DNA of 64,000 bases, taken from contig NZ_CP150269.1 in the NCBI RefSeq assembly GCF_037976825.1, forward strand, positions 3,857,501 to 3,921,500, written 5' to 3'. Positions 41,199 to 64,000 of the stretch are shown piece after piece. The DNA comes from Paenibacillus sp. FSL K6-1330. GTDB lineage: Bacteria; Bacillota; Bacilli; Paenibacillales; Paenibacillaceae. Made by a program: the position numbers and the translations under genes. Each line of letters opens with the position of its first letter. Position 1 is the stretch's first letter. The notes under the pieces are model-generated. The model worked only from the letters and a program-made list of their open reading frames with translations, was not told the origin of the DNA and did no database searches.

Positions 41199-43352
41199 TC
41201 AGTTGACAAGCATCAGAAGATCAGGGTCCGGCAGAGCTTTTTTATCGACTTTCCCGTTAGGGGTGAGCGGCAAACTTTCCATCTGTACCACAAGAGAGGG
41301 CAGGAAATATTCAGGCAAATTACGGGCTAAATACGCTTTGACATCTGTATCGGACAAAACCTGTTTCGCAACAAAGTACGCGCATATTATCGGATTGCCA
41401 CTCTCGTCGGCTTTGACGGCTACCGCGGCTTTCGAGATTCCGTAGTGTTCCAGCAGCCGAGCCTCGATTTCTCTCGGTTCTACTCGATACCCTCTGATCT
41501 TCACTTGATCGTCGATTCGCCCGATAATTTCGATATTGCCATCCGGCAGCCACAGGGCCATATCCCCCGTTCGATATAACCTTTCCCCGAGGAGCGGATG
41601 TTCCACAAACTTTGCTTCTGTCAATTCCAGTTGGTTCAAATACCCCCGCGCGATACCGTCCCCTCCAACGCAAAGCTCTCCCACTACTCCGATGGGCTGA
41701 AGCTTCAACTGTTTGTCAAGGATATAAGCGGAGGAATTGCATATTGGTCTGCCAATCGGAATGGCGGATTCGAATTCACGTTCAATCGGGAAGTAAGTGG
41801 AGAATGTCGTGTTTTCCGTCGGACCGTATATATTGACCATCCGCAGATCGGGACACGTCTTACTTACGGCGTTTACGAGCTTCGGCGACAACGCTTCTCC
41901 GCCAACTAGCAAGGTGTTCAACGTACGAAAGATGTCAGGATCCTGTTCGGCCAGATTATGGAACAAAGCTGTAGTCAGAAACCAAGCCGTAATGCGGTGG
42001 CCGATGATGGTTTCCTTCAATTTGAGAAGTTCTAATAGATCCTTATCCTTCATCAAATACAAGGTAGATCCGTTCAAAAGGGATCCCCAAATTTCAAAGG
42101 TTGACGCATCGAATGCAATTGCGCCGGTTTGCAAAATTCGATGATCAATGGAAAAATTGAAATAATTAGTATTCTTGACCAGTCTTACGATGTTGCGATG
42201 TTCAACCATGACTCCTTTCGGTGTCCCCGTTGATTCGGAAGTATAGATGATATACGCTAGACTTTGCGAGGTTACTGCAGATATCGTATGGGGACAGCTG
42301 TCATGGTAAAGGTGCGCGTTGTCCCAATAAATTAATTTTCCTTCAAATGCAAAGTCAGGTTTCCAACTGGAAGGGGCCAGCAAAAATCCCGCCCGACTGT
42401 CCTCGAGCATATATTCGAGTCTTTCGCACGAAGAATCGGCTTCGATGGGCATATAAGCGCCACCCGCCTTCAATATAGCTGTAAGCCCGACGATCATACT
42501 GATAGACCGATCCGCGACAATGCCAACGACGCTCTCCGGCTTTACGCCGTGATCCTGTAGGGCTTTTGCAAGCTGATTCGCGTGTTCGTTCAATTCCCGA
42601 TAGGACATCTGATGGTCCTCGGTCATGACCGCCGGGCGATCGGGGGTTAAGCGGACCTGTTCCTCAAACAAGTAATGGACCGTTTTGCTGGAAGGATAGT
42701 CCGTCTTAGTTCCGCTGAAAGCCTGAATCTGTCTCTCCTCTTCTTCGGACAACAAGTGTATGTCGGCAATCACTTTCTCGGGAAAATCGGCAACATCCTG
42801 CACAATACGGCTCAAGTGGTCGCCCATCTGCTCAATCGTTTCCTTTCTGTACAAGCGGGTCGCATAATCAAGGTGTATCATGAGAGATTCCTTCTTAAAA
42901 GCTGTCAAAGCAAGCTCAAACATCCCCAACTGATCGGATTTCAAAGGAGTGGTGTTGGCTTTTTGCCAAGTAAACGCCGCTTTGATGAACGGATTGCCGC
43001 TCAGATTCTTACGCATATTCCGATCTTCGAGTGCTTGCATCGTGGTATGCTTAACTTCTATCAGAAACTTACCTAATGGCTTATGTACAGTAGGAGAATA
43101 TCGTATAGGAAGCATCTGGCTTTCCAACGAATACCCAATTACAGGGTCATCCTCGCCGGTATATTTGGCAAGCAGGATTACATAACAAGCCATAAGTGCC
43201 ATATCCACAGTTATTCCGAAATTGAACGCAAGTTGATAGAGTTTTCGGGTCGTTACAGAATCAAGGCAAAAACTAACCCGGCTTCCTTCATCGTTGGTCC
43301 ATTCTCCCCACGGAAATTCGTCAATTGATACTTCACATGTCGTTTGTTCCAT
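41199..43352 (-). CDS. Truncated NRPS: condensation C-lobe and adenylation domain, no carrier
   Basis: 717 residues from ATG at 43352, preceded by GGGAG. Residues 1-200 are only the C-terminal lobe of a condensation domain (no HHxxxDG). Residues about 205-700 are an adenylation domain with A4 FDASTFEIW, A5 NIYGPTENT, A7 YRTGDMA, A8 GRIDDQVKIRGYRVE and A10 NGKVDKKALP. Manual alignment to PheA numbering gives the code DAFFLGITFK, one residue from a published Ile code. Core A3 reads YTSESTGTPKG: Gly is replaced by Glu373 (GAA for GGA), which probably harms ATP binding. The protein stops where a thiolation domain should begin. It is preceded by a c-di-GMP riboswitch. Likely a relic. Confidence 0.85.
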   Translation of the reverse strand: MEQTTCEVSIDEFPWGEWTNDEGSRVSFCLDSVTTRKLYQLAFNFGITVDMALMACYVILLAKYTGEDDPVIGYSLESQMLPIRYSPTVHKPLGKFLIEVKHTTMQALEDRNMRKNLSGNPFIKAAFTWQKANTTPLKSDQLGMFELALTAFKKESLMIHLDYATRLYRKETIEQMGDHLSRIVQDVADFPEKVIADIHLLSEEEERQIQAFSGTKTDYPSSKTVHYLFEEQVRLTPDRPAVMTEDHQMSYRELNEHANQLAKALQDHGVKPESVVGIVADRSISMIVGLTAILKAGGAYMPIEADSSCERLEYMLEDSRAGFLLAPSSWKPDFAFEGKLIYWDNAHLYHDSCPHTISAVTSQSLAYIIYTSESTGTPKGVMVEHRNIVRLVKNTNYFNFSIDHRILQTGAIAFDASTFEIWGSLLNGSTLYLMKDKDLLELLKLKETIIGHRITAWFLTTALFHNLAEQDPDIFRTLNTLLVGGEALSPKLVNAVSKTCPDLRMVNIYGPTENTTFSTYFPIEREFESAIPIGRPICNSSAYILDKQLKLQPIGVVGELCVGGDGIARGYLNQLELTEAKFVEHPLLGERLYRTGDMALWLPDGNIEIIGRIDDQVKIRGYRVEPREIEARLLEHYGISKAAVAVKADESGNPIICAYFVAKQVLSDTDVKAYLARNLPEYFLPSLVVQMESLPLTPNGKVDKKALPDPDLLMLVN

Positions 43353-43554
43353 GACCATCAACTCCCGGATTATCGATTCATTAATGTCTTATTAATAACG
43401 AACAGAAGAATCCTCTTCGCATTCTGCGATGAAGAAGTATCCCCCCTCCTGAGCCAATTATGACTGTGGCCTTATCTAACCCCAAACTTAGTTTTTTCTT
43501 ACAGCGAAGCTAGCCGTTGTTTTTTGGAACGTCAAAAAACCCCCTTTCTTCAAA

Positions 43555-51062: not shown

Positions 51063-51103
51063 CAAAAAAAGCGCTTGAAATGGCCATTTGCATTTCAAGC
51101 GCT
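51063..51103 (-). terminator. Terminator after the M20 peptidase gene
   Basis: AGCGCTTGAAATG / CATTTCAAGCGCT perfect stem followed on the minus strand by TTTTTTT. It ends the biosynthetic operon. Confidence 0.88.
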
Positions 51104-51148: not shown

Positions 51149-52522
51149 TCATGGCATCGCTCCGTACCGTTCCAGCACCCGGTAAATCGCATCCGTGCCG
51201 AACCCGACCGCTTCTACAGGAATGCGTTCATCAGCCGCATGAATCAGTTTGGTAAACTGCATGTCCTTGGGCAGCGGCATTGGCAGGAAACCGTAGGTTT
51301 GGATGCCGAGCCTCGCAAACCATCTTCCGTCCGTTCCTCCGGGCAGCAGCATCGGCACCGGAACGGCCTCCTTATCCGCTTCTTTCAGCACGTCGGACAG
51401 CAACCCGAACATCCCCATGTCGGGAGCTTCGGCGCATGGGTCATGACGCAGCACCTCCAGCTCGATCGAATCATGAATCGCGAATCGGCGCAGCTCGTCC
51501 ATAAATTGCTGCGGAGTGACGCCCGGCAGCGTTCGGCCGTCGAGCTCAACCGTAATTTCGCTTGGATGAACGTTGATTTTCTCGCCGCCGCGAACAACGG
51601 TCGCGCTGATCGTATTACGCAGAAGAGGGGCGAATGTCCCTCCCTTTTCCCCCAGCAGCTTCAGGATGAGGCCGCACAGCCGGGGACGCAGCAACCCTCT
51701 CAGCAGCAGCGCCGGCAGCAGCGGCAGTGCGGCGGCCATGCCTTCAATCATCAACCGCGCCGCTGGTGTCACACGTATCGGCAGCTTATTCCTGCTAAGC
51801 GATTGAAGCATGTTCCCCAATTGCGCCATACAGTCGGCTCCAGGATTGCCCATGGAGCCGTGGCCACCATCTCCTCGAATCGTCGCTTTGAGCCAACAGA
51901 GCTGCTTCTCCGCCACCATAATCGGATAAAAGGTTTTTCCCAGCGCATGAAACGAGAAGCCGCCGAATTCGCCGAGCGCATACTTGACGCCCGCAAAATA
52001 ATCGGCATGCCGCTCTACCAGGAAGGAAGCCCCGTATTCGCCCCCTGCTTCCTCGTCGCTGACAATCGCCAGAATGAGATCGCCACGCAGCGGCAGCTTG
52101 CGTACATGCGCGCGGAGGAAAGCCGATACGAGCATCGCCAGGCCGCCTTTCATATCAAGAGCGCCCCGCCCCCAGACGAAGCCGCCCTCGATGTTGCCCC
52201 CGAACGGGTCGCGGCTCCAGTCTTGCTTCCCTGTGCCAACGACGTCGACATGCCCGTACAGCAGCAGCGGCGGTGCCTCCCCGCTGCCCTTCATCCTGGC
52301 CAGCAGATTGGGCCGGGCCGGATCAAGCGAACAGGTCCGTGTCTCAATGCCCGTATCCTCAAGCAGTTGCCGGATATACATGATGCATGCGGCTTCCTCA
52401 CCCGGCGGATTTGTTGTGTTAAAGCGGATCAATGCCTGCAAAATCTCCACGGGAGACGGCAGCTCTTCCGGGCGCTTGACTCCATCTTGATCCAACTCGT
52501 CATTGTTCAGCCGGATCCCCAT
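51149..52522 (-). CDS. M20-family metallopeptidase (ArgE/DapE/CPG2 type)
   Basis: 457 residues from ATG at 52522, with AAGGAG upstream. Zinc ligands and catalytic residues are in place: His91 and Asp93 in YGHVDVVG, the bridging Asp123 in GRGALDMKGG, and Glu-Glu in VSDEEAGGEYGA. A dimerisation insert (about 200-330) and the C-terminal His in KLIHAADERIPV complete the fold. It hydrolyses an amide bond in a small peptide or N-acyl amino acid. As the last gene behind the NRPS cluster it may remove a protecting group, or inactivate or mature the product. The MITE-like copy B lies just upstream. Confidence 0.88.
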   Translation of the reverse strand: MGIRLNNDELDQDGVKRPEELPSPVEILQALIRFNTTNPPGEEAACIMYIRQLLEDTGIETRTCSLDPARPNLLARMKGSGEAPPLLLYGHVDVVGTGKQDWSRDPFGGNIEGGFVWGRGALDMKGGLAMLVSAFLRAHVRKLPLRGDLILAIVSDEEAGGEYGASFLVERHADYFAGVKYALGEFGGFSFHALGKTFYPIMVAEKQLCWLKATIRGDGGHGSMGNPGADCMAQLGNMLQSLSRNKLPIRVTPAARLMIEGMAAALPLLPALLLRGLLRPRLCGLILKLLGEKGGTFAPLLRNTISATVVRGGEKINVHPSEITVELDGRTLPGVTPQQFMDELRRFAIHDSIELEVLRHDPCAEAPDMGMFGLLSDVLKEADKEAVPVPMLLPGGTDGRWFARLGIQTYGFLPMPLPKDMQFTKLIHAADERIPVEAVGFGTDAIYRVLERYGAMP

Positions 52523-52546
52523 GACCCCGCTCCTTCCTAATAAGAG

Positions 52547-52717
52547 GTTGTTCAAAAAGTCCGCTTTTGATCACGAAGTAACACTGAAAGCATATTCGAC
52601 ATCGAATCTTGAATTCAGCGGGCCTTCCGGTGCTCACGTACCCACTACGTACGTTCCGCTCCTCTGACCCTAGCTTTATCCAACCTTCTCGGTGCTGAAA
52701 ACCGACCTTTTTGAACA
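52547..52717. repeat. MITE-like element, copy B
   Basis: It matches copy A at 33377-33537 along its length (CGCTTTTGATCACGAAGTA, ATTCGACATCGAATCTTGAA, TCCAACCTTCTCGGTGCTGA). The ends GTTGTTCAAAAAG and CTTTTTGAACAC form terminal inverted repeats that extend beyond those of copy A. It sits between the acyltransferase and peptidase genes. Confidence 0.8.
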
Positions 52718-52721
52718 CGCA

Positions 52722-54002
52722 CTATAATGGACTGCCCGCGTATGGCCGGTCGGCAGGAGAAACGCCCGGCAAGCTGCGCAGGCCGAACTCATCGCACAGC
52801 CTTGCGAGTCGCCGCTCCTGCTCATCGGCGGACGTGCCTTTGGTGCGAAACACCGATTCCAGCATCGCCAGCGCTTGCCGAACATGCGCTTCCGCCACTT
52901 GCTCTCCCGTCTCCCGAAGCCGATCAACCAAGCGCTGCACGCCGCGGTAAGGCGAAACGACGCCTTGTTCATATTCGGCCGCGTTCCAGTTGCGGTTGCG
53001 GACGCACGTAGCGATAGCCAGACAACGATTCAGCAGATCAATCGAATAAGCGTCCGTTTGCCGGCTTGCGGCAACCAGTTGCGCTTCATCCTCCTTGTCG
53101 TCAAAAGCGAATACGCGTAGTCCGTCCGCTGGCGCCAGCCGTTTCAATACATTGCCCGGACCCAGTTCTACGGCAGAGGCAACGCCAATACTTTTCTGAA
53201 AGGCAAGGACAGCCGGCCAATTGACAGGGTCCGTCAATCCCCTTGCCAGCATACCCGCGATCTCCGCCGTATTTCCGTATGGCAGACCCGTCAAGGAGGA
53301 AACGACGGGAAAATCCATTTCTCCAAACGAGACGCGGCTCAGCACTTCGGCAAATTGTGCCGCCGCCGGCGCCATCAACGGACTATGGAACGGCGCGCTT
53401 ACCTGCAGCGGAATGACTGCGGCCCCATGGGCGGACAGTCTTTCGGACGCTTCATGGACAGCCTCTTTGTGGCCCGAAATCACCGTTTGCCGGTCTGAAT
53501 TCATATTCGATACCACAACAATACGGCTTCCGTCCGTGCAGCTTGCGCTGATTTCCAAGCATACTTTGGCGACAACATCGGGACTCGGCCCGTTCACGGC
53601 GGCCATTGTGCCGATCCCTGCAGCGGCGGCCCCTTGCATCAACTCGCCGCGGCGGCGTACGAGCCTGAGCGCATCCGGGAACGTTATGGCTCCCGCGCAG
53701 GTTAAAGCGGTAATCTCGCCCAGGCTGTGGCCGGCTGCCATCGCAGGCAGGTATCCCCATTCACGACTGTAGACGCTGTACATTGCCACACCAAGCGCAA
53801 GAATAGCGGGTTGGGCATTGTCCGTCCTCGTCATCTCCGTTGTCGGTCCCTCATACATCAGGCTGTCAAGGCGCATGCCCAGCGCTTCGTTCGCTTCCTC
53901 CATCGTCGCTTTGACAACCGGATACCGCTCGCTCAGCATTTTTCCCATCCCGACGCGCTGCGATCCCTGACCGGGAAACCATATCGCATGTTTGTTCAGC
54001 AT
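52722..54002 (-). CDS. Discrete malonyl-CoA:ACP acyltransferase (trans-AT type) with C-terminal extension
   Basis: 426 residues. The first 300 are FabD-like: GQGSQ at 11-15, the nucleophile Ser93 in GHSLGE, Arg of the RRRGELMQ helix (117-120) that binds the malonyl carboxylate, and His206 in APFHSPLM. These features favour malonyl-CoA. Residues about 300-426 form a helical extension (CLAIATCVRNRNWNAAEYEQ, VAEAHVRQALAMLESVFRTK) that FabD lacks. In this cluster it is likely to load malonyl units in trans onto polyketide carrier domains, which must lie outside the window. It starts 22 bp after the thioesterase stop. Confidence 0.9.
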   Translation of the reverse strand: MLNKHAIWFPGQGSQRVGMGKMLSERYPVVKATMEEANEALGMRLDSLMYEGPTTEMTRTDNAQPAILALGVAMYSVYSREWGYLPAMAAGHSLGEITALTCAGAITFPDALRLVRRRGELMQGAAAAGIGTMAAVNGPSPDVVAKVCLEISASCTDGSRIVVVSNMNSDRQTVISGHKEAVHEASERLSAHGAAVIPLQVSAPFHSPLMAPAAAQFAEVLSRVSFGEMDFPVVSSLTGLPYGNTAEIAGMLARGLTDPVNWPAVLAFQKSIGVASAVELGPGNVLKRLAPADGLRVFAFDDKEDEAQLVAASRQTDAYSIDLLNRCLAIATCVRNRNWNAAEYEQGVVSPYRGVQRLVDRLRETGEQVAEAHVRQALAMLESVFRTKGTSADEQERRLARLCDEFGLRSLPGVSPADRPYAGSPL

Positions 54003-54024
54003 CTTCCATCACGCTCCTTACGGG

Positions 54025-54741
54025 TCAGATCGGGGCAGGCGCCTCGGTCAGCTTTTTGTTAATCACCGCTACAACATCGGATTCCCACTCATGCAGGAAA
54101 AAATGTCCGCCTTCAAACAGCATCAGCTCGCAGCCTCCCGTCGCGTACCGCTCCCATTCGCCGAGCGGGCCTTTGACGCAGCCGTCATCTTTACCGCTCA
54201 AGATGGTGAGCCGGAGCGGCAGCGGCGGCCGCATTCGATGCTCGTATTCGCCGACAAGCTTGAAGTCGGCTCTTAGGATCGGCATAAACATATCCAGCAG
54301 CTCCCGATGCCGGAACAGCTCGTCCGGCATGCCGCCAAGCCGCTTCACTTCCTCGAGAAACTCGTCATCCGGAAGCAGATGGGTCCGGCGAGCCTCCTTC
54401 TGCTCGCAATGCGGTGCCCCTCTGCCGGAGAGGAAGACTGCCGCAGGCAGCGGGAATCCTTCTTCCCGCAGCGCATGCAGCACCTCATACTCGAGCAGGC
54501 TGCCCATGCTGTGGCCGAATAAAGCATAGGAGTCTGAGCCAAGCGCCGTCTCTCTTACCAGCGGCAGCAAATCCCGCACGGCCTCCGCCGCGTCCGCATA
54601 GAACGGCTCGTCCATGCGGCTTCCCCTGCCCGCCAGTTCGGCCGGCACCAGACGCACGCCGGGATGCAGCCGGTTCGTCCAGCGTTTGTACACTTGAGCG
54701 GAGCCCCCTGCATATGGCAAACAAATTAAAGATATCGTCAT
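54025..54741 (-). CDS. Type II thioesterase (GrsT/SrfAD family)
   Basis: 238 residues from ATG at 54741, placed by GGGAGG; the open frame starts at 54798. The pattern is standard for NRPS/PKS editing thioesterases: start SLICLPYAGGSAQVYKRW, LAGRGSRMDEPF, the nucleophile Ser78 in FGHSMGSLLEYE, the Asp in LSGKDDGCV and the His in FEGGHFFLHEW. It removes wrong or stalled acyl groups from carrier proteins of the assembly line. Coupled closely to the acyltransferase downstream and the BtrH-like gene upstream. Confidence 0.93.
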   Translation of the reverse strand: MTISLICLPYAGGSAQVYKRWTNRLHPGVRLVPAELAGRGSRMDEPFYADAAEAVRDLLPLVRETALGSDSYALFGHSMGSLLEYEVLHALREEGFPLPAAVFLSGRGAPHCEQKEARRTHLLPDDEFLEEVKRLGGMPDELFRHRELLDMFMPILRADFKLVGEYEHRMRPPLPLRLTILSGKDDGCVKGPLGEWERYATGGCELMLFEGGHFFLHEWESDVVAVINKKLTEAPAPI

Positions 54742-54781
54742 AACGCCCGCCTCCCGGGTAACATGTTGACGCAAGCGGCTT

Positions 54782-55753
54782 TTACGCGCCGGCGACAAGC
54801 ATGGTCCAGAACGTTTTTTCCTTCGCGAACAAATCGTCCGCGAGCGCCAGCTCTCTGCCGCGTTCGAAGTCCCCCGTCACAAATCGGTCCTTCACCAGAT
54901 CCCATCCGTCCCTCACTGCGCCAAGCTGACCGGACAGCGACTCATGCAGCGCTTCGCCGATCAGCCCCTTCTCCCGCAGGGAGCGGAGCAGCGACGTGTT
55001 GGCGATATGCCGGTTGCAAATGATGTTGACGCCGACAAGGCCATAGGTCAAATGAGCTTGCTTCTTCTCCGGGTCGGAATCTACATTCCACATGCCCTCT
55101 ATGGAGAACTCGCCAAGCTCCCTCGCCAGCCGCTCCGCATTTTCCACCACTTCAGTCAGCTTCAACTCATAGGGCTGAATTTTTTCCTGCAAGTTGTATA
55201 CGTAGAAGGCAGGCCCCAAATAGCTCGGGTTCACGTTGTATTCCGAGTTGCCGTACGCCTTGAGCAGCCTTTCCTCCGGCACCTCGTGCTCCTCGTAGCC
55301 GGCAAGCGTATCGTCAATGACGTAGAAGACGCCGCGCTCCTTGTCGTATCCATTAAACAGCGAATAATGATACCAATGGAACCTTTTCCAGGCCATACTG
55401 CCCGGCAGCCAGTCATACAGATCGACGTTTACGCTCAAGTTGCGTCCGCCCTCCAGCATCGCCCTGATTTCCTCCGGCACCGTCTCCATGCTGCGGAAAT
55501 GACCGGGCTCGATATAGCGGATCACCTGCGACAGCGGGAATCTGGCCGGATCGTCCATATAATACAGCGTGTCAATAGTCGGATAGCGGAAGTCTTTGTC
55601 GGTTGCGGCCTCCCAAGGAAAGTACCGGTAAATGTTCAAATACGCCGCATCCCTGTAGCTGGGATCCTCGGACACCGCTATGGAAAAGGCCTGGTTCAGC
55701 ATGCAGTTCATCCAAAACTCGTTAAACGGTTTCCTTTTCATTGACAGCTTCAT
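54782..55753 (-). CDS. BtrH-like cysteine acyltransferase/peptidase-fold protein
   Basis: 323 residues. Near the N-terminus Cys17 (FWMNCMLNQAFSIAVSEDPS) begins a helix, and the middle has WYHYSLFNGYDKERGVFYVI followed by DD: His129 and Asp147 could complete a Cys-His-Asp triad of the BtrH_N/papain-like fold. BtrH moves an acyl chain from a carrier protein onto an amino group in butirosin synthesis. Here, 33 bp after an NRPS that ends in a condensation domain, the same type of acyl transfer or release is plausible. The match is by pattern and context and is not certain. Confidence 0.6.
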   Translation of the reverse strand: MKLSMKRKPFNEFWMNCMLNQAFSIAVSEDPSYRDAAYLNIYRYFPWEAATDKDFRYPTIDTLYYMDDPARFPLSQVIRYIEPGHFRSMETVPEEIRAMLEGGRNLSVNVDLYDWLPGSMAWKRFHWYHYSLFNGYDKERGVFYVIDDTLAGYEEHEVPEERLLKAYGNSEYNVNPSYLGPAFYVYNLQEKIQPYELKLTEVVENAERLARELGEFSIEGMWNVDSDPEKKQAHLTYGLVGVNIICNRHIANTSLLRSLREKGLIGEALHESLSGQLGAVRDGWDLVKDRFVTGDFERGRELALADDLFAKEKTFWTMLVAGA

Positions 55754-55786
55754 GGTTCGCCGCCCCCTTAGGCTCAGAATTTTGGT

Positions 55787-58700
55787 TCAAGCAAGCTTGC
55801 TTGCCGCAAGCACAGCACTGATTTTTTTCTTTGCTCCGTCTTCGACCAGCGCGTGTATGATCGCCGTATAATCATCCGCCAGCGCCCAGGCATTTTCTTC
55901 GTGGAAAAGACTTGTCGCATATTCCAGCGTAAAGCCGATCTTGCCGTCCTGCTCCACCGCTTCAAGCGTCAAATCGAATTTGCTGACGCCCGGATCGAAC
56001 TCTTTGGGGTCAAATTCAATGCCGCCCGAACGGTAAGCGACGCGATCGATATTTTGCAAAATAAACATCGTAACGAACAGCGGGTTGCGGCTGCGGTCCT
56101 GTTCGATTCCCAGCTTTTGCACCAAATCCTCAAACGGGTAATTCTGGTGTTCCAGCGCCCGCAGTACATCCTCATGCAGTTCGGTCAAATAGTCGCCAAC
56201 GGTCCGGTACGATTCCGGGAAGCTGCGAATCGCGACCGTATTGACGAACATCCCGATCAGCCCTTCCAGCTGCGCATGATTGCGGCCTGCTACCGGTGTG
56301 CCGATAATGATATCCTCGTCACCGCTCCATTTGCTCAGCAGCATCGCATAAGCTCCGAGCAGAACGGTGTACAACGTCGTGCCGCGCTCGCGCGCAAACG
56401 CCTTGATCTGGAGCGTCAGCCCCTCATCCAGTCTGAAGTTGATCAGACTGCCCTTGAAGTTTTGCAGTTCCGGTCTTGGCAAGGAAGTCTTGAGCTCCAG
56501 CGTTGGCAGTTCCCCTTCGAACGCCTCCAGCCAGTAGCGCTCATGCCCCATATAGGCCTCGCTGCCGATTTGTTCTTCTTGCCATACCGTGTAATCCCGG
56601 TACTGGATATCCAGCTCTGGCAGCTCGCCGCCGCCGTACAAAGTGGTCAGTTCCTGCAGCAGGACGCTGACGGAGACGCCGTCGGTAATAATATGATGCA
56701 AGTCCAGCAGCAGCAAATGGCGCTCCTCGCCAAGCGGAATCAATCCGGCACGGAACAGCGGGAGACTGCCGAGATCGAACGGACGGATAAAGCGCTCCAT
56801 CAGCGCGCTGATGCCGCCGAATAATCCTTCGTCTCCGCCTTCCGCGAGCAGCTTGCCCGCCGCCATTCTCAGCTTAGCGCCCCGCTCCAACGAAAACACC
56901 GGCTCCGCATGCACGCGCTGGCGGAACTCGTCCTCCTCGTGATGGAACGTCGTCCTGAGCGATTCATGGCGGCGCATTATTGCAAGGAAAGCTTCCTCCA
57001 ATCGCTCCACATCGAGCTTGCCCTGCATATGCACGGCGAACGGCACATGGTACATCGTTGCCTCGCCCGAGATCAGCCCCATCATAAATTGGCGGCGCTG
57101 CGCCCTCGACATCGGGTAATGCTCGCACTCCGGCTGCTTCGGAATGCGTGCGGCCGCCACGGTTCCGCTAGTGTCCAGATGGGCCGCTAAACCTTCAAGC
57201 GTAGGGTTCATAAAAATATCACGCAGCGGCATTTGGATGCCAAAGCGTTCCGCAATGCGGCTGATCATGCCCGCCGCCTTCAGGGAATGGCCTCCAAGAT
57301 CGAAAAAGCTGTCCTTGGCGCTGATCGCATCCGTACCGAGCAGTTCCTTCCAAATCTCCGCCAGCTTGCGCTCGGTATCCGTCGACAGCGGAACAAGCTC
57401 TCGTGTGCCAGTGTCGGCTGGTCCCGGCTTCGGCAGCGACCTTCTGTCGATTTTGCCCGTTGGCGTAAGCGGAATCGCATCCAGAACGACCATGAAGGCC
57501 GGAACCATATAAGAAGGCAGCTTGTCCCCGAGAAATTCGCGCAACTGCGCGGTCAACCGGCCGGATGGCGTGTCGTCGTCTTGCTCTGCATCTGCTGCTG
57601 CGACGTTCAACATGACGACATACGCGCAAAGCGCATATTCCCCATCCTCTTCCTCGAATGCGGTAACGACCGTTTCCTTCACCTGCTCATGGCGAAGCAG
57701 CAGCTGTTCAATTTCACCGATTTCAATCCGGTGACCCCTGATTTTCACCTGGAAATCGCGGCGTCCCGCGTAGGCGAACTCGCCATTTTCAAGCCTGCGC
57801 CCAAGGTCGCCCGTGCGATACATGCGTTCGCCCGGCGCATACGGATTCGGCACAAAAGCGACATCCCATTCGGGATGGCTGAGATACCCGCGCCCGACGC
57901 CCGGCCCGCCGATGCAAATTTCGCCCGTCACGCCTGTCGGCTGCAGCTTCAGTCCTTCGTCAAGCACCATCATGAGGGAACCTTCGATCGGCGTACCGAT
58001 CGAAATCTCCTCGCCTTCGGTCACTTCCCGCATTGAGGTCCACACCGTCGTCTCCGTCGGACCGTACAAATTAAACAATCTGGCTCCGGTAGCGGCGCGC
58101 AGCCTGCCGAGCACATCGGCCGTGAGCGGCTCCGCCCCGATCATCAATATGTGCAGCTGTTGCAAACCGTCCGTTTCGCCTCGCTGGTTCATCCACCATT
58201 TGAAGCGCGACGGCGTAATTTGCAGCACATCGATGCCGTACGTGTCGATCAGGCCTTGCAGCAAGGCGGCGTCGCCCCGTTCCTCTTCGCTCGCGAGTAC
58301 AATCCGCATACCCAGCGTGAGCGGAAGCAGATTTTCAACGACAAAAATATCAAAGGAGACCGATGCCATCGCCAGGATGCTCTGGCCCTTCTCAAACGGA
58401 ATCCGTTCTCGGAAGCCGCTGATGAAATGCGCCAGCCCGCGATGCTCGATCATCACTCCTTTGGGACGCCCGGTCGAGCCCGACGTATACAGCACATACG
58501 CCAAATGGTCCGGCTTATGGACTAACTCCGGATTGCCTCTGTCTGCCGCATACAGCTCCGGATCGTCCAGATACCACTCGGCAACGGCTCTCGTTACGAC
58601 TCCTGCATATGCTTTTTCCGTCAGCAGAAGCGCTTCGCCGCAATCCTCAAGCATCCAGTCGATCCTCTCTTTCGGATAAGCGGGATCAATGGCGACATAT

Positions 58701-61700
58701 GCGCCTCCGGCTTTCAGAATCCCCAAAATGGCGACAAGCAGCAGCGGGCTGCGGGACGCCATCAGCGCGACAATGCGCTCAGGCCCCACACTCTTCGCCC
58801 GCAAGGAATGGGCAAGCCGATTCGCGCGTTCGTTCAGCTCGGCGTACGTCACCGTCTCCGTGCCGAATTGAATCGCCGCCGCATCCGGCGTGCGCGCCGC
58901 CTGGCGCTCCACCTCCTGGACAAACCCCGTCCATTCCGTCGTGGCTTGCGAGGAAGCCGTCGCATCTCCTTGCTGGTCCGTCGTGTCTTTCTCGGCTCGA
59001 GTTTCCATCCTACCATTGCCCCCCTCTCTGCTAGCGGCCAGTACCGGCATGCTTCCTCCGGCCAACAGAGCCAGCAATTGATCCCGCTCGCTTTCACTCA
59101 TCAGCTCAAGCTCGCCGACCGTGCGATCACGAGATCTGCACATCTCCCTTACGAGTACGGTATAGCTTTCCGCCATGCGGCGCGCGGTTTCTTCATGAAA
59201 CAAATCCGTTGCGTATTCCAGTTGAAGCTCGATTTCCGCTTCCCGTTCCACCGCTTCCAGAGTCAGGTCAAATTTGCTTGTCCTCGTCTCGAACGGCATC
59301 ACACCAAAGACGAGCCCGCCTGCTTCCATCACCGCCCGGTCCATATTTTGCAAGACAAACATGGCGTCAAACAAAGGATTGCGGCTTCTGTCGCTATCTG
59401 CCTTCAGCCCCTCGACCAGCTCCTCGAAAGGATACGTCTGGCGCGAAAGCGCCTCTACGACATGGTTATGCAGCTCCGCCATGTAGGCCCTTACCGTCTT
59501 GTCTCTTGCCGGCCTAGTCCGCAGCGCCAGCGTGTTGACGAACATGCCGATCATGCTATGCGTATCGGCATGTTCCCTGCCGGCGGCGGGAGTGCCCACA
59601 ATCACTTCGGCCTGCCCGCTGTATTTGGCCAGCATCGCGGCAAAAGCGCCCAGCAGCACCGTATACAGCGTCGTCTTGGCTTCCCGAGCCAGCTTTCGCG
59701 CCGCTGCCGTTGTTCGCGCGTCGAGACGGAACGAATATCGGCGGCCCTTATAGCTCGGCAGAGACGGGCGCGGCCGATACGTCGGCAGCTCCAGCACAGA
59801 AAGCTTGCCTTCGAAGATTTCCATCCAGTATTGTTTATGTTCCTCATATGTGCCATTTGCAAATCCGGTTTCCTGCCACACCGCATAATCGCTGTATTGC
59901 ACGCGTAACTCCGGCAGCGCTTGTCCGGCATACAGCTGCGACAGCTCATTCACCAGCAAACCGGAGGATACGCCGTCCGTAATAATGTGATGAACATCGA
60001 GCAGCAGCAGATGATCTTCCTCATTCAGCCGCAGCAGCCCCGCCCGCAGCAGCGGCAGCTTGTCCAGATGGAACGGGCGCTGGAAAACTTCCATCAGCCT
60101 CGTCACCTCGGCGCCGTCCGGCGGTGCTCCCCGCAGCGCTTCGTCTCCGGTCGACGCGGCACGATCCAGCGTCTCCAGCTTGAACGCATACGGCGGATGA
60201 ACCATTTGCCTGAACTCGTCCTTTGTCATATGGAAGGTCGTCCGCAAGCTTTCATGGCGCGCGATCAGAGCCGTAAACGCGTCTTCCAGCCTCGCCGCAT
60301 CCAGCCTGCCCTGCAAGCGGAGCGCAAACGGCACATGATACATGGTGGCGTCTCCGGCCAGCATCTGCATCATATATTGGCGGCGCTGGGCGCGCGACAT
60401 CGGATACCAATCGCGGCGCTCCGACTTCGGGATCGGCTCGGCCGCCACAGCGGCACCGTCCCGCTCCTTCAGCCAGGCGGCTATTTCCGCAATGGAGGTA
60501 AGCTCGAATATCAGGCTAAGTGGAACCAGGGTGCCCGTCGCCTGCTGCAGCTTGCCCGCCAGCACGGCAGCCTTCAAGGAATGGCCGCCAACCTCGAAAA
60601 AGTCGTCGTGAATACCAATTGGTCCGGCCGTATCGCCCAACACTTCCTCCCAAATGGCGGCGACGCGCTCTTCCATCCCGTCTCGCGGCAGCTCCGGCTT
60701 TCCCCGCTCCCCGAAGTCCGGCTCCGGCAAGGCGCGCCGATCCACTTTCCCGTTCGGCGTCAGCGGTATCGCATCAATTGCCGCGATATAGGCCGGAATC
60801 ATCGCTTCCGGCAGTTTGTCTTTCAGCTTTCTTCGCCATTCCCGCGAAGGGAGCTTGTCCGAAGCGACTACATAAGCGCACAGCTCCCTGTCGCCGCTTG
60901 CCTGCTCGCGGGCGACCACTACCGCATCCTCCACCTCGGGAAGGGAAATCAATTGCGAGCGAACCTCGTTCATTTCAATCCGCACGCCTCTGATTTTTAC
61001 CTGCTGATCGGCCCGGTCCACATACACAGCGTTGCCGTCAGGCAGCCACTTTGCGATATCGCCGGTGCGATACATGAACCGGCCCTCGTTGTACGGATGC
61101 GGCAAAAAGCGCTCAGCTGTCATATCCGGTTTGTTCACATAACCGTCGGCAAGGCCGCTGCCGGCAATATACAGCTCCCCGGCTGCACCGATTGGAGCAA
61201 GCTGGCCGCCATAGCCGAATATATAAATTTCGACATTGTGCATCGGCCCGCCAATCGGCACATAGCCGCCGCGATAAGCGCCCGGCTTGTATGCGTACAT
61301 ATTGGAGCAGACCGTCGCCTCCGTAGGGCCGTAGCCGTTAATAATCCGCATCCCGGGATTAAGCTTCGTATACAGCTCCAGCGTTTCGTCTTTAATCGGC
61401 TCTACCCCAACGAGCATTTTGTCCAGCGTAATCGCGGAAGCCGATTGTTCCAGCAGCCGCGCAACCTCTTTCAGCAAAGACGGCGGCAAATAAGCGAATG
61501 TAATCCGCTCTTCCGCAATCACTTCGGCAATTCGCCGCGGATCAAGCAATTTCGGCTCCGGGTAAAGCACCGTGCACGCCCCGAACATAAGCGGCATAAA
61601 CAGCTCCGCTACGCTGACGTCAAACGAAATATTGGTGAGGCTGAGGCATCTGTCACCCTCGCCGTATTGTCCGTCAAAAAACGTCCTGAGCGAATGTCCG

Positions 61701-64000
61701 AAATTGTAAAAGCTGCGGTGCGGCACCATGACGCCCTTCGGCTGACCCGTTGAACCTGAGGTATAGATGACATACATCGGGTCATCAGGATCCTGTGCCC
61801 CTGCGGCGGCAGCATCGTCTCCGCCGGAGAACAGCGTCTCATCCGTTATGTCCAGCACCTGCAAGGAGGCCGGCACGACGGTCGTAGATCCGGAACGCGC
61901 GCCGTCCGCGATTACCAGCTCCGCGCCGCTGTCCTCTAGCATATAGCGGATGCGCTCCTCTGGATGATGCGGATCTACAGGCAGATAAGCGCCTCCGGCT
62001 TTCATAACGGCGAGCATAGCGGTCAGCGTGGGGATGGAGCGCTCCGCCATGATGCCGATTACGCTGCTGCGTCCCACACCTTTGGCGCGCAAGGTTCGCG
62101 CCAGCGCATCGGTACGGCGATCCAGCTCCCGATAGGTCATGGATTCACCGCCGCAAGCTACGGCCGGCAGTTCGGGAACGGCCAGCGCCTGTTCCTTAAA
62201 GCAATCATGCAGACAGCGCGGCGGCGAAAAGTCCGCTTCGCGTCTCCCCAACGCCAGCATGTGCAGGCGCTCCTCCTCCGTCAGCATCTCCACTTCGCCT
62301 AGTGTGGCGTCGGGACGGAGCGTCACGCTGCGCAGCAGCTGCACATAATGCCGCATGAACCGCTCGGCTGTCGCGCGGCGAAACAAATCGGTATTATATT
62401 CCACGACAAGCCGCAATTCCGCACCATTCTCCACAGCCTGAATCATTAAATCGTATTTGGCGGTTCCATGCTCAAAGCGCTGGTGGCGATACGACAACCC
62501 CTCAGATGAAGCGTTTGGAATACCCAGGTTTTGCATGATGAACATCGTGTCAAACAGCGGACTCCGGCTGGCATCCCTTCTGTCCATCCATTGCGCAATT
62601 TCCTCGAATGGATAATCGGCGTGGGCGTAAGCCCCAGTCGCCATCTCTTTCACTTCGGACAAAAAAGCTCTGAACGGCTTGTCCGCGAGCGGATAAGCGC
62701 GCAGCGCCAGCGTGCCGGTGAACATGCCCGCGATCGCTTCTAGCACGCGCCTATTCCGTCCAGCAATCGGCGTGCCGACGGCAATGTCCTCGGCCCCTGT
62801 ATAGTGGGCGAGGAACGTGTAATATGCCGATAGCAGCACCATAAACGGAGTCGTGCCCGATTCGGCCGCTAGGCTGCGCACAGCCTTCGTCAAACCAGCC
62901 TCGACGTAGACGTCGAACGTTTCGCCGCGATTGCCTTTGACGAGCGGCCGCGGGGCATCGGTTGGAAGCGCAAGCGTCGGCCAGTCTCCCCGGCATTGCT
63001 CGCGCCAATACCGTTCGGCGTTCCCAGAGAGCGGCCTGCTCTCCTGCCATACCGCATAATCCTTGTATTGCAGCGGCAGCGGCGGCAGCGAACCTCCCTG
63101 ATATAAAGTCATCAGGTCGGACAAAAGAATGCCCGCCGACATGCCATCGGATGCAATATGGTGCATATCAAGAAACAGCACATGGCGCTCCGGCCCCAGC
63201 GTCAGCAAAGCTGCGCGGAGCAGCGGAGCCGTATCGAGCCTGAACGGCCGGAACAAGCTTTGCAGCACGGTCTCCGCTTCCGCTTCATCGGCCTCCATGC
63301 GAATCAAGCGGAAAGAAATGGCGTCGTGAACACGCTGTCTGATCTCTCCGTCGATGACGTGGAAGGTGGTACGAAGCGTCTCGTGACGCTCTACAATGGC
63401 TTGCAGGACGGCCTCCAGCCGATCTGCATCAATAACCCCGTCCAAGTGCAACAATTCAGGCAAATTATAGCTGCGATCATCCGGAATCGCCTGCTGTTGC
63501 AAATACATACGTTTCTGCGGCGATGAAACCGGATAATGCTCTTGCGGAGCCGCCTTTGGAATCGGCTCCAGCGTATCGCCGAACAAAGAGTCGGACACTT
63601 GGCCGGTCCATGGCCCGTCCTGCACTCTGGTTACTCTTGATCCGCCAACACCTCCAGCCGCCGCTTGCCCGTCACGAGTACCGTACGCCATTTTCCCGTC
63701 AATGGTGCTGGCTACCGCTTGCCCGCCGTTCGCCTCTTTCTCGCCGATCCCAACGCCTGCCCCTTGTCGATCATGCCCTGCGCTTGTTCTTTGCGCTGTC
63801 ACCGCGCCGCTCTCCCTGAGACGCTGCTCGATCAGCGCTGTGAACGAAGGCAGATCCGCATGTCCCAGCAAATCCGCCGCCTGAATGCGTACGCCCACAA
63901 GCTCGCTGACCCGGTTTACTATTTTGAGCGCAATAATGGAATCTCCGCCCAGCTCATAAAACCCGGCATTCGCAGGCAATTCGTCATAACCCAGTAGCTC
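55787..64000 (-). CDS. Multimodular NRPS, partial (T-C-A-T-C-A-T-C)
   Basis: 2737 codons are visible and the frame is still open at the right edge (ELLGYDEL precedes the first listed residue). Numbered from TTG at 63979: T1 (GGDS, Ser14), a Gly/Ala-rich linker (about 58-145), C1 (HHIASDG at 273-279), A1 (from about 590), T2 (GGHSLKAA near 1130), C2 (HHIITDG near 1329), A2 (YTSGSTGRPKGVM near 1835), T3 (GGHSLKAA near 2230) and C3 (HHIITDG near 2428). There is no thioesterase. Manual PheA numbering gives code DVAYLGGVCK for A1 (no prediction) and DIVQMGLVWK for A2, close to the Gly code DILQLGLIWK. All catalytic motifs look intact. The final C domain has no partner in this window. Confidence 0.95.
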   Translation of the reverse strand, partial: ELLGYDELPANAGFYELGGDSIIALKIVNRVSELVGVRIQAADLLGHADLPSFTALIEQRLRESGAVTAQRTSAGHDRQGAGVGIGEKEANGGQAVASTIDGKMAYGTRDGQAAAGGVGGSRVTRVQDGPWTGQVSDSLFGDTLEPIPKAAPQEHYPVSSPQKRMYLQQQAIPDDRSYNLPELLHLDGVIDADRLEAVLQAIVERHETLRTTFHVIDGEIRQRVHDAISFRLIRMEADEAEAETVLQSLFRPFRLDTAPLLRAALLTLGPERHVLFLDMHHIASDGMSAGILLSDLMTLYQGGSLPPLPLQYKDYAVWQESRPLSGNAERYWREQCRGDWPTLALPTDAPRPLVKGNRGETFDVYVEAGLTKAVRSLAAESGTTPFMVLLSAYYTFLAHYTGAEDIAVGTPIAGRNRRVLEAIAGMFTGTLALRAYPLADKPFRAFLSEVKEMATGAYAHADYPFEEIAQWMDRRDASRSPLFDTMFIMQNLGIPNASSEGLSYRHQRFEHGTAKYDLMIQAVENGAELRLVVEYNTDLFRRATAERFMRHYVQLLRSVTLRPDATLGEVEMLTEEERLHMLALGRREADFSPPRCLHDCFKEQALAVPELPAVACGGESMTYRELDRRTDALARTLRAKGVGRSSVIGIMAERSIPTLTAMLAVMKAGGAYLPVDPHHPEERIRYMLEDSGAELVIADGARSGSTTVVPASLQVLDITDETLFSGGDDAAAAGAQDPDDPMYVIYTSGSTGQPKGVMVPHRSFYNFGHSLRTFFDGQYGEGDRCLSLTNISFDVSVAELFMPLMFGACTVLYPEPKLLDPRRIAEVIAEERITFAYLPPSLLKEVARLLEQSASAITLDKMLVGVEPIKDETLELYTKLNPGMRIINGYGPTEATVCSNMYAYKPGAYRGGYVPIGGPMHNVEIYIFGYGGQLAPIGAAGELYIAGSGLADGYVNKPDMTAERFLPHPYNEGRFMYRTGDIAKWLPDGNAVYVDRADQQVKIRGVRIEMNEVRSQLISLPEVEDAVVVAREQASGDRELCAYVVASDKLPSREWRRKLKDKLPEAMIPAYIAAIDAIPLTPNGKVDRRALPEPDFGERGKPELPRDGMEERVAAIWEEVLGDTAGPIGIHDDFFEVGGHSLKAAVLAGKLQQATGTLVPLSLIFELTSIAEIAAWLKERDGAAVAAEPIPKSERRDWYPMSRAQRRQYMMQMLAGDATMYHVPFALRLQGRLDAARLEDAFTALIARHESLRTTFHMTKDEFRQMVHPPYAFKLETLDRAASTGDEALRGAPPDGAEVTRLMEVFQRPFHLDKLPLLRAGLLRLNEEDHLLLLDVHHIITDGVSSGLLVNELSQLYAGQALPELRVQYSDYAVWQETGFANGTYEEHKQYWMEIFEGKLSVLELPTYRPRPSLPSYKGRRYSFRLDARTTAAARKLAREAKTTLYTVLLGAFAAMLAKYSGQAEVIVGTPAAGREHADTHSMIGMFVNTLALRTRPARDKTVRAYMAELHNHVVEALSRQTYPFEELVEGLKADSDRSRNPLFDAMFVLQNMDRAVMEAGGLVFGVMPFETRTSKFDLTLEAVEREAEIELQLEYATDLFHEETARRMAESYTVLVREMCRSRDRTVGELELMSESERDQLLALLAGGSMPVLAASREGGNGRMETRAEKDTTDQQGDATASSQATTEWTGFVQEVERQAARTPDAAAIQFGTETVTYAELNERANRLAHSLRAKSVGPERIVALMASRSPLLLVAILGILKAGGAYVAIDPAYPKERIDWMLEDCGEALLLTEKAYAGVVTRAVAEWYLDDPELYAADRGNPELVHKPDHLAYVLYTSGSTGRPKGVMIEHRGLAHFISGFRERIPFEKGQSILAMASVSFDIFVVENLLPLTLGMRIVLASEEERGDAALLQGLIDTYGIDVLQITPSRFKWWMNQRGETDGLQQLHILMIGAEPLTADVLGRLRAATGARLFNLYGPTETTVWTSMREVTEGEEISIGTPIEGSLMMVLDEGLKLQPTGVTGEICIGGPGVGRGYLSHPEWDVAFVPNPYAPGERMYRTGDLGRRLENGEFAYAGRRDFQVKIRGHRIEIGEIEQLLLRHEQVKETVVTAFEEEDGEYALCAYVVMLNVAAADAEQDDDTPSGRLTAQLREFLGDKLPSYMVPAFMVVLDAIPLTPTGKIDRRSLPKPGPADTGTRELVPLSTDTERKLAEIWKELLGTDAISAKDSFFDLGGHSLKAAGMISRIAERFGIQMPLRDIFMNPTLEGLAAHLDTSGTVAAARIPKQPECEHYPMSRAQRRQFMMGLISGEATMYHVPFAVHMQGKLDVERLEEAFLAIMRRHESLRTTFHHEEDEFRQRVHAEPVFSLERGAKLRMAAGKLLAEGGDEGLFGGISALMERFIRPFDLGSLPLFRAGLIPLGEERHLLLLDLHHIITDGVSVSVLLQELTTLYGGGELPELDIQYRDYTVWQEEQIGSEAYMGHERYWLEAFEGELPTLELKTSLPRPELQNFKGSLINFRLDEGLTLQIKAFARERGTTLYTVLLGAYAMLLSKWSGDEDIIIGTPVAGRNHAQLEGLIGMFVNTVAIRSFPESYRTVGDYLTELHEDVLRALEHQNYPFEDLVQKLGIEQDRSRNPLFVTMFILQNIDRVAYRSGGIEFDPKEFDPGVSKFDLTLEAVEQDGKIGFTLEYATSLFHEENAWALADDYTAIIHALVEDGAKKKISAVLAASKLA

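Follow-up and report, generated by a model that had tools for sequence, protein, structure and literature searches.

Five neighbouring minus-strand genes at positions 51149–64000 of a 64,000-nucleotide stretch of Paenibacillus sp. FSL K6-1330 (hereafter the window; positions 3857501–3921500 of a 7.43-Mb single-contig genome) raise the question of what kind of product they help to make and how it leaves its assembly line. A first-pass annotation had described five tightly spaced genes on the same strand that form the downstream end of a biosynthetic assembly line, and both points hold. The genes are the 3' part of a cluster of ten, all on the same strand, which extends upstream past the window edge to position 81261 (extended positions, above 64000, continue the numbering of the window; the whole cluster spans genome positions 3908649–3938761). 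The second nonribosomal peptide synthetase (NRPS2) and the gene for a BtrH-like protein are separated by 33 nt, the latter overlaps a type II thioesterase gene by 17 nt, a discrete acyltransferase (AT) gene follows after 22 nt, and an M20 peptidase family gene after 166 nt. Because neighbour gaps across the whole cluster are small (≤ ~170 nt) and a 13-pair terminator-like hairpin with a T run lies 3' of the M20 gene, the ten genes likely form a single operon. The terminator scan overall returned 4 terminator-like sites versus 5.7 in shuffled sequence, the promoter scan performed no better than shuffles, and nothing near the operon start exceeded the Rfam gathering score. Within the set of ten, neither a transporter nor a regulator gene was found, and PADLOC returned no match for the four proteins submitted.

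Judging from domain content, we lean towards the view that this operon makes an acylated hybrid peptide-polyketide by the following route. A fatty-acid–AMP ligase (FAAL)-like domain would load a fatty-acyl starter, and three modules would add Ile/Val-Ser-Ser. The last serine would be extended to a beta-keto unit by a ketosynthase (KS)–acyl carrier protein (ACP) module, for which the discrete AT could provide malonate, and two further modules, with adenylation (A) domains A4 and A5, would add a residue X and then a small residue. The terminal condensation (C) domain and/or the BtrH-like protein, as an amide synthase, would release the chain onto an amine. The beta-alanine made by PanD would be either the residue activated by A5 or the amine that takes over the chain. 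Finally, the M20 enzyme would trim or deacylate the product, and three CPBP proteins would have a membrane role other than canonical glutamate/histidine hydrolysis, in maturation, export or self-protection.

The first support for this route comes from the synthetases. Pfam and seed searches resolved the 3433-aa NRPS2 into KS, linker and ACP, followed by C-A-PCP-C-A-PCP-C (PCP, peptidyl carrier protein), and no further domain was detected after the last C domain. From the discrete AT, the first-pass annotation had deduced a polyketide module without its own AT, none of it in the window, and had pointed to the sequence past 64000. The deduction was right, because a KS-ACP without AT lies upstream in the NRPS2 protein itself: the KS is located at extended positions ~64874–66001, ~0.9 kb outside the window and within the NRPS2 open frame, and none was found inside the window. 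No AT, ketoreductase or dehydratase profile was found in NRPS2. The two synthetases together hold seven carrier domains, and neither matches an aminotransferase profile. A type I thioesterase and a reductase domain were likewise not found, so that release would fall to the amide synthase, the terminal C domain or both.

The ligase domain of the first NRPS matches best the NCBIfam families PRK07768 (339.9 bits, cut-off 572) and PRK09192 (339.3 bits, cut-off 600), both fatty acyl-CoA/AMP ligase subfamilies; no match exceeded its cut-off among those listed. Its PDB matches include several fatty-acid–AMP ligases, and we refer to this putative starter domain as FAAL-like. The following three A domains carry the codes DGFALGVVFK, DVWSFSLVDK and DVWSFSLVDK, which we take to be Ile/Val-like, Ser and Ser, and the codes of A4 and A5 come next in order (Table 1). 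Code positions follow PheA numbering. In a profile-profile comparison, the last ~210 residues of the protein correspond to the latter half of a condensation domain (hhalign probability 95.6, E 1.2e-8), without the HHxxxDG half; this half-C immediately precedes the point where the chain would pass to the KS. A scan of genome contigs for relatives gave 38 loci, of which the 23 with enough sequence (L014–L033, L035, L036 and L038) were counted. Outside these stand L034 and L037, where the contig ends within the cluster; L039, with no synthetase within 10 kb; the Cohnella loci L040–L041, treated separately; and the distant loci L042–L051. Both the half-C tail and the three codes recur in all 23 relatives, the codes unchanged, and the Cohnella proteins end in a stretch that looks similar by eye.

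The discrete AT scored 272.1 bits against TIGR00128 (cut-off 260.9) and is the second FabD-like gene of the genome, a stronger, housekeeping FabD match lying at genome position 4955202. Pfam and NCBIfam likewise support the thioesterase and M20 assignments; the true start of the thioesterase may be downstream of the listed TTG. An acyl-ligase start, a single KS-ACP module lacking AT and a discrete malonyltransferase are shared with the trans-AT systems of the iturin and mycosubtilin type. In contrast to these, the KS here comes after three amino acids rather than directly after the fatty acid, aminotransferase and terminal thioesterase domains were not found, and panD, three CPBP genes, an amide synthase candidate and an M20 gene are present. 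Iturin-type clusters bear an aminotransferase domain for the beta-amino fatty acid. A legend in PMC4397504 also mentions that domain, and the same 2015 genome-mining study records heptapeptide synthetases of iturin-like type for Paenibacillus sp. HGH0039 and an 'incomplete NRPS' for P. pini. HGH0039 is one of our relatives (L014) and carries this cluster, and the study may have partly seen it. That the product has already been described, in a paper or in MIBiG, is thus conceivable, the more so as our literature search covered open-licence papers, with MIBiG outside its scope. We nevertheless regard this as unlikely, since no paper describing the product was found in that literature and the iturin-type aminotransferase domain was not found here. 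The earlier failure to match the locus to a named compound agrees with this search, and the cluster is real and apparently an uncharacterised variant of the trans-AT hybrid NRPS–polyketide synthase (PKS) clusters.

How, then, would the chain be released? The earlier label of a BtrH-like acyl-transfer protein stands in part. The protein scored 16.2 bits against PF14399 (BtrH_N), below the family cut-off of 29.7, as did the best of five such proteins scanned (24.6 bits, L032), and one of 21 relatives (P0008) has a precomputed Pfam BtrH label. The fold fared better: in a structure search, the model resembled two amide synthases, CtaG and CcbD, over its full length, although identities to proteins of the CtaG and CcbD/LmbD groups are only 12–13% and 9–10%. 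The fold search alone worked, as the PDB sequence search gave no match for the protein or for its 18-row profile. A triad C18-H129-D147 is proposed; the order of the Cys-His-acid motif and its conservation (alignment of 17 of the 21 relatives) are compatible with the CtaG/CcbD type. On the strength of the model, we propose that this protein is a carrier-protein-dependent amide synthase.

It resembles CtaG of closthioamide and CcbD/LmbD of the lincosamides in fold, size and motif order. Whereas the solved members come from quite different pathways, the gene here stands beside a modular NRPS-PKS that ends in a C domain. According to PMC6772006, the closthioamide pathway also uses beta-alanine, possibly via an in-cluster decarboxylase. 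Closthioamide-type assembly proceeds independently of NRPSs, with ATP-grasp and AANH thioamide synthetase enzymes; neither enzyme is encoded among the ten genes, and a modular NRPS is present. In the BtrH/BtrG protective-acyl strategy of butirosin biosynthesis, an acyl chain is transferred to an amine before a separate hydrolase takes off a cap. The likeness to this system is in logic only: the BtrH_N match is below cut-off, the hydrolase here is an M20 enzyme, and no aminoglycoside genes are among the ten. Separately, four Paenibacillus genomes (L042, L043, L045 and L046) hold BtrH-like genes 35–42% identical to this one close to a different FAAL-like gene, in another cluster.

The candidate amine is suggested by panD. 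Its pro-enzyme Gly-Ser site (YVGS) is kept in 23/23 aligned rows, and the genome carries another panD at 2806315. Among 100 same-genus genomes, a close BtrH-like gene (E < 1e-100) was found in ten. All ten genomes with the cluster hold a second panD (frameshifted in G062), compared with three of the 90 without it (G020, G035 and G079; G003 has one sub-cut-off panD fragment besides). Fisher p values for this link are 2e-11, 6e-11 or 1e-9 under three ways of counting, uncorrected for kinship. In nine of the ten, this panD and the BtrH-like gene share a contig and are 25–30 kb apart; in G023 the two are on different contigs. The link offers a simple labelling handle for finding the product.

A contrast is provided by two Cohnella genomes. 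In G126, the cluster runs from a phosphopantetheinyl transferase (PPTase) gene through the FAAL-like NRPS, CPBP2, CPBP3, AT, CPBP1 and a KS-PCP-C-A-PCP protein to a gene resembling short-chain dehydrogenases/reductases by eye, an AMP ligase, the BtrH-like gene, KASIII and a weak second KASIII-like gene, and ends with M20, a major facilitator superfamily gene, type II thioesterase and a possible second BtrH-like gene (14.8 bits). The first three codes of its FAAL-like NRPS are nearly identical to those in Paenibacillus, the third being DVWPFSLVDK. G127 was checked for synthetases, CPBP, AT, BtrH-like, M20 and thioesterase genes. Both clusters are without the A5 module and the terminal C domain, and no panD lies near either; each genome has one panD, ~150 kb off on the same contig in G127. 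Because module, terminal C domain and nearby panD are missing together, the beta-alanine supply would track the chain end. Alternatively, panD could merely boost CoA and pantetheine supply for the carriers, the product itself being free of beta-alanine: pantothenate is made from beta-alanine, and the synthetases carry seven carrier domains. We consider this the least probable of the alternatives, as the G126 cluster, with six carrier domains, has a PPTase gene in place of a nearby panD.

A more serious alternative, though still unlikely in our judgement, is that A5 simply activates beta-alanine, the terminal C domain being a final condenser or cyclase and the BtrH-like protein doing something else, such as a side-chain acyl shift. 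The co-occurrence of panD with the A5 code fits this, as do the relatives with longer NRPS2 proteins, which hold three (L033), three (L035) and two (L036) A5 codes and retain panD. The code itself speaks against it, since it keeps Asp235 and agrees at 6/10 positions with the Gly code. The best PDB match of A5 is the second A domain of LgrA; A4 has the same best match, and PDB neighbours therefore do not discriminate between substrates.

All three CPBP proteins exceed the PF02517 cut-off of 22.4 bits (CPBP1 52.1, CPBP2 49.3, CPBP3 44.6), and an N-acylated NRPS start together with a CPBP membrane protein is also found in the didemnin cluster with DidK. As stated in PMC10811503, DidK cleaves an N-acyl-polyglutamine leader and is required for secretion; its motif-2 His is essential, the loss of this residue impairs MmRce1, and didK homologues beside NRPS/PKS genes are proposed as a mining handle for prodrug systems. 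A didemnin-type prodrug, whose N-terminal acyl-peptide is a leader cut by the CPBP proteins around export, would thus account for the FAAL-like start and for CPBP genes in 23/23 relatives and in Cohnella. The residues do not bear this out. As CPBP2 and CPBP3 had no PDB match by sequence, motifs were aligned by eye against DidK F233xxxH237 and H274xxxN278. The motif-2 position holds Gln in 26/26 CPBP1, Phe in 24/24 valid CPBP2 and Phe or Leu in 24/24 CPBP3 rows; the motif-3 His is Gln in 26/26 CPBP1 and 23/24 valid CPBP2 rows and is kept in 23/24 CPBP3 rows. Two Cohnella rows filed under CPBP2 were really CPBP1 and were discounted; the correct proteins, viewed separately, agree by eye on the motif loss. 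With three copies here and none bearing the His that DidK needs, cleavage by the CPBP proteins is doubtful, and we assign the prodrug model a low probability. The M20 enzyme provides an alternative cutter. Its nearest families are PRK07906 (349 bits, below the 382 cut-off), ArgE/DapE and aminoacylase-1, its metal-ligand and catalytic residues are kept in 27/27 aligned rows, and no signal peptide is evident by eye; it appears the better candidate for removal of an acyl cap, and the unmasking by tailoring enzymes that the first-pass annotation had suggested may be its task. With CPBP paralogues that keep the domain without the known catalytic His, the cluster offers a way to test what non-canonical CAAX-like proteins do in natural-product pathways.

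Taken further, a cysteine amide synthase of the CtaG/CcbD type might work with the terminal C domain to pass the chain to beta-alanine made by the decarboxylase of the cluster, with the half-C handing the chain from NRPS to KS and the three CPBP proteins, which have lost known catalytic histidines, having a non-proteolytic task in the pathway. We think it rather improbable that this new release and maturation logic applies as a whole. Several observations weigh against the preferred route of an acylated, beta-alanine-linked hybrid product. No A domain of the cluster carries the beta-alanine code. The terminal C domain and the amide synthase are both present, which leaves two candidates for release. 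The Cohnella contrast comes from two related genomes and so represents one lineage. The second KS His motif, as the exact pattern KTNIGH, occurs in 17 of 26 KS-bearing proteins, NRPS2 included. Finally, L017 (Paenibacillus sp. FJAT-26967) and L018 (P. lutrae) are without AT and thioesterase and keep the KS module, L018 retaining a 44-residue AT remnant; either the AT is replaceable or these clusters may be dying.

The cluster is conserved across many Paenibacillus species, and no product of it was found in the open-licence papers searched. All ten genes are intact with the same architecture in 14 of the 23 relatives (one PCP undetected in L023). CPBP1–3 and the BtrH-like gene are present in every one, thioesterase and AT in 21, M20 in 22 (not found in L038) and panD as an intact open reading frame (ORF) in 22 (two pieces in L031). 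The first NRPS is a single ORF in 21 (split in L019 and L022), and the NRPS2 domain order is unchanged in 20, among them L022 and L031 with shorter ORFs; four C-A-PCP modules occur in L033 and L035 and three in L036. The A4 code varies (DVASLGGICK in L021 and L032, DVSMLGGVCK in L033 and L035, DVCTLGGICK in L036, DVCTLGGVCK in L038), and the A5 code is DIVSLGLVWK in L038 and DIVSMGLVWK in all other relatives. L033, L035 and L036 (also L034 and L037) have an extra ~1070-aa protein of half-C, A-PCP and tail between thioesterase and AT, with the code DVHMMGVVWK or DVHMIGVVWK.

The cluster has a GC content of 57.7% compared with 46.2% and 45.1% in its flanks, and its identity does not track that of FabF among 19 relatives (Spearman 0.23 and 0.25; p 0.35 and 0.30). 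This GC step and the FabF mismatch could point to simple recent horizontal transfer. We do not claim it, because the same flanks lie near the cluster, rearranged, in three of four genomes tested (EZ-K15, P. solani and DMB20, not P. tuaregi) and the GC content of the cluster exceeds that of its flanks in all 19 relatives measured (by <5 points on at least one side in L027–L029). The cluster has probably long been present in the group and passed between species, possibly by allele exchange. Paenibacillus sp. EZ-K15 (L019), with an identical FabF (100%), appears to be the same species as the present genome.

Table 1 Features of the cluster; positions above 64000 are extended window coordinates
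Feature	Position	Strand	Remark
NRPS2, in-window part of the 3433-aa KS-ACP-C-A-PCP-C-A-PCP-C hybrid	55787–64000	-	Start at extended 66088 (genome 3923588)
A4 adenylation domain, code DVASLGGVCK	60725–62197	-	Code positions by PheA numbering
A5 adenylation domain, code DIVSMGLVWK, Gly-like, beta-alanine candidate	57452–58909	-	PheA numbering
Terminal condensation domain of NRPS2, HHxxxDG intact	55829–57121	-	Ends approximate
BtrH-like/CtaG-CcbD-fold protein, proposed carrier-protein-dependent amide synthase	54782–55753	-	
Type II thioesterase (PF00975), GHSMGS	54025–54798	-	
Discrete malonyl acyltransferase (trans-AT), GHSLGE	52722–54002	-	
M20 metallo-amidohydrolase	51149–52555	-	
Intrinsic-terminator-like hairpin, 3' end of operon	51070–51103	-	
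Three CPBP/Rce1-like membrane proteins	66103–66852 or longer, 66903–67712, 67717–68589	-	First is CPBP3, start uncertain
First NRPS, 4063 aa, FAAL-like-PCP-(C-A-PCP)x3-half-C	68658–80849	-	
Cluster panD	80878–81261	-	

Upstream of panD (~0.4–1.9 kb), 18 of the 23 relatives (L014–L032 except L021) carry a family-2 glycosyltransferase gene of the same orientation, which is split in two in L019 and L031. It was rejected as a pathway gene, there being no ortholog in the present genome (the best match has 36% identity over 100 residues). An NRPS relic on the minus strand (41199–43361), some 8 kb past the downstream end of the cluster, comprises the second half of a C domain and an A domain (code DAFALGITFK) without PCP, and is 29–37% identical to the cluster C-A regions; by eye, the sequence past its stop resembles a decayed carrier domain. 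Elsewhere in the genome (positions 6464290–6487903) lies a further modular type I PKS region, in which five KS matches and five AT matches were obtained.
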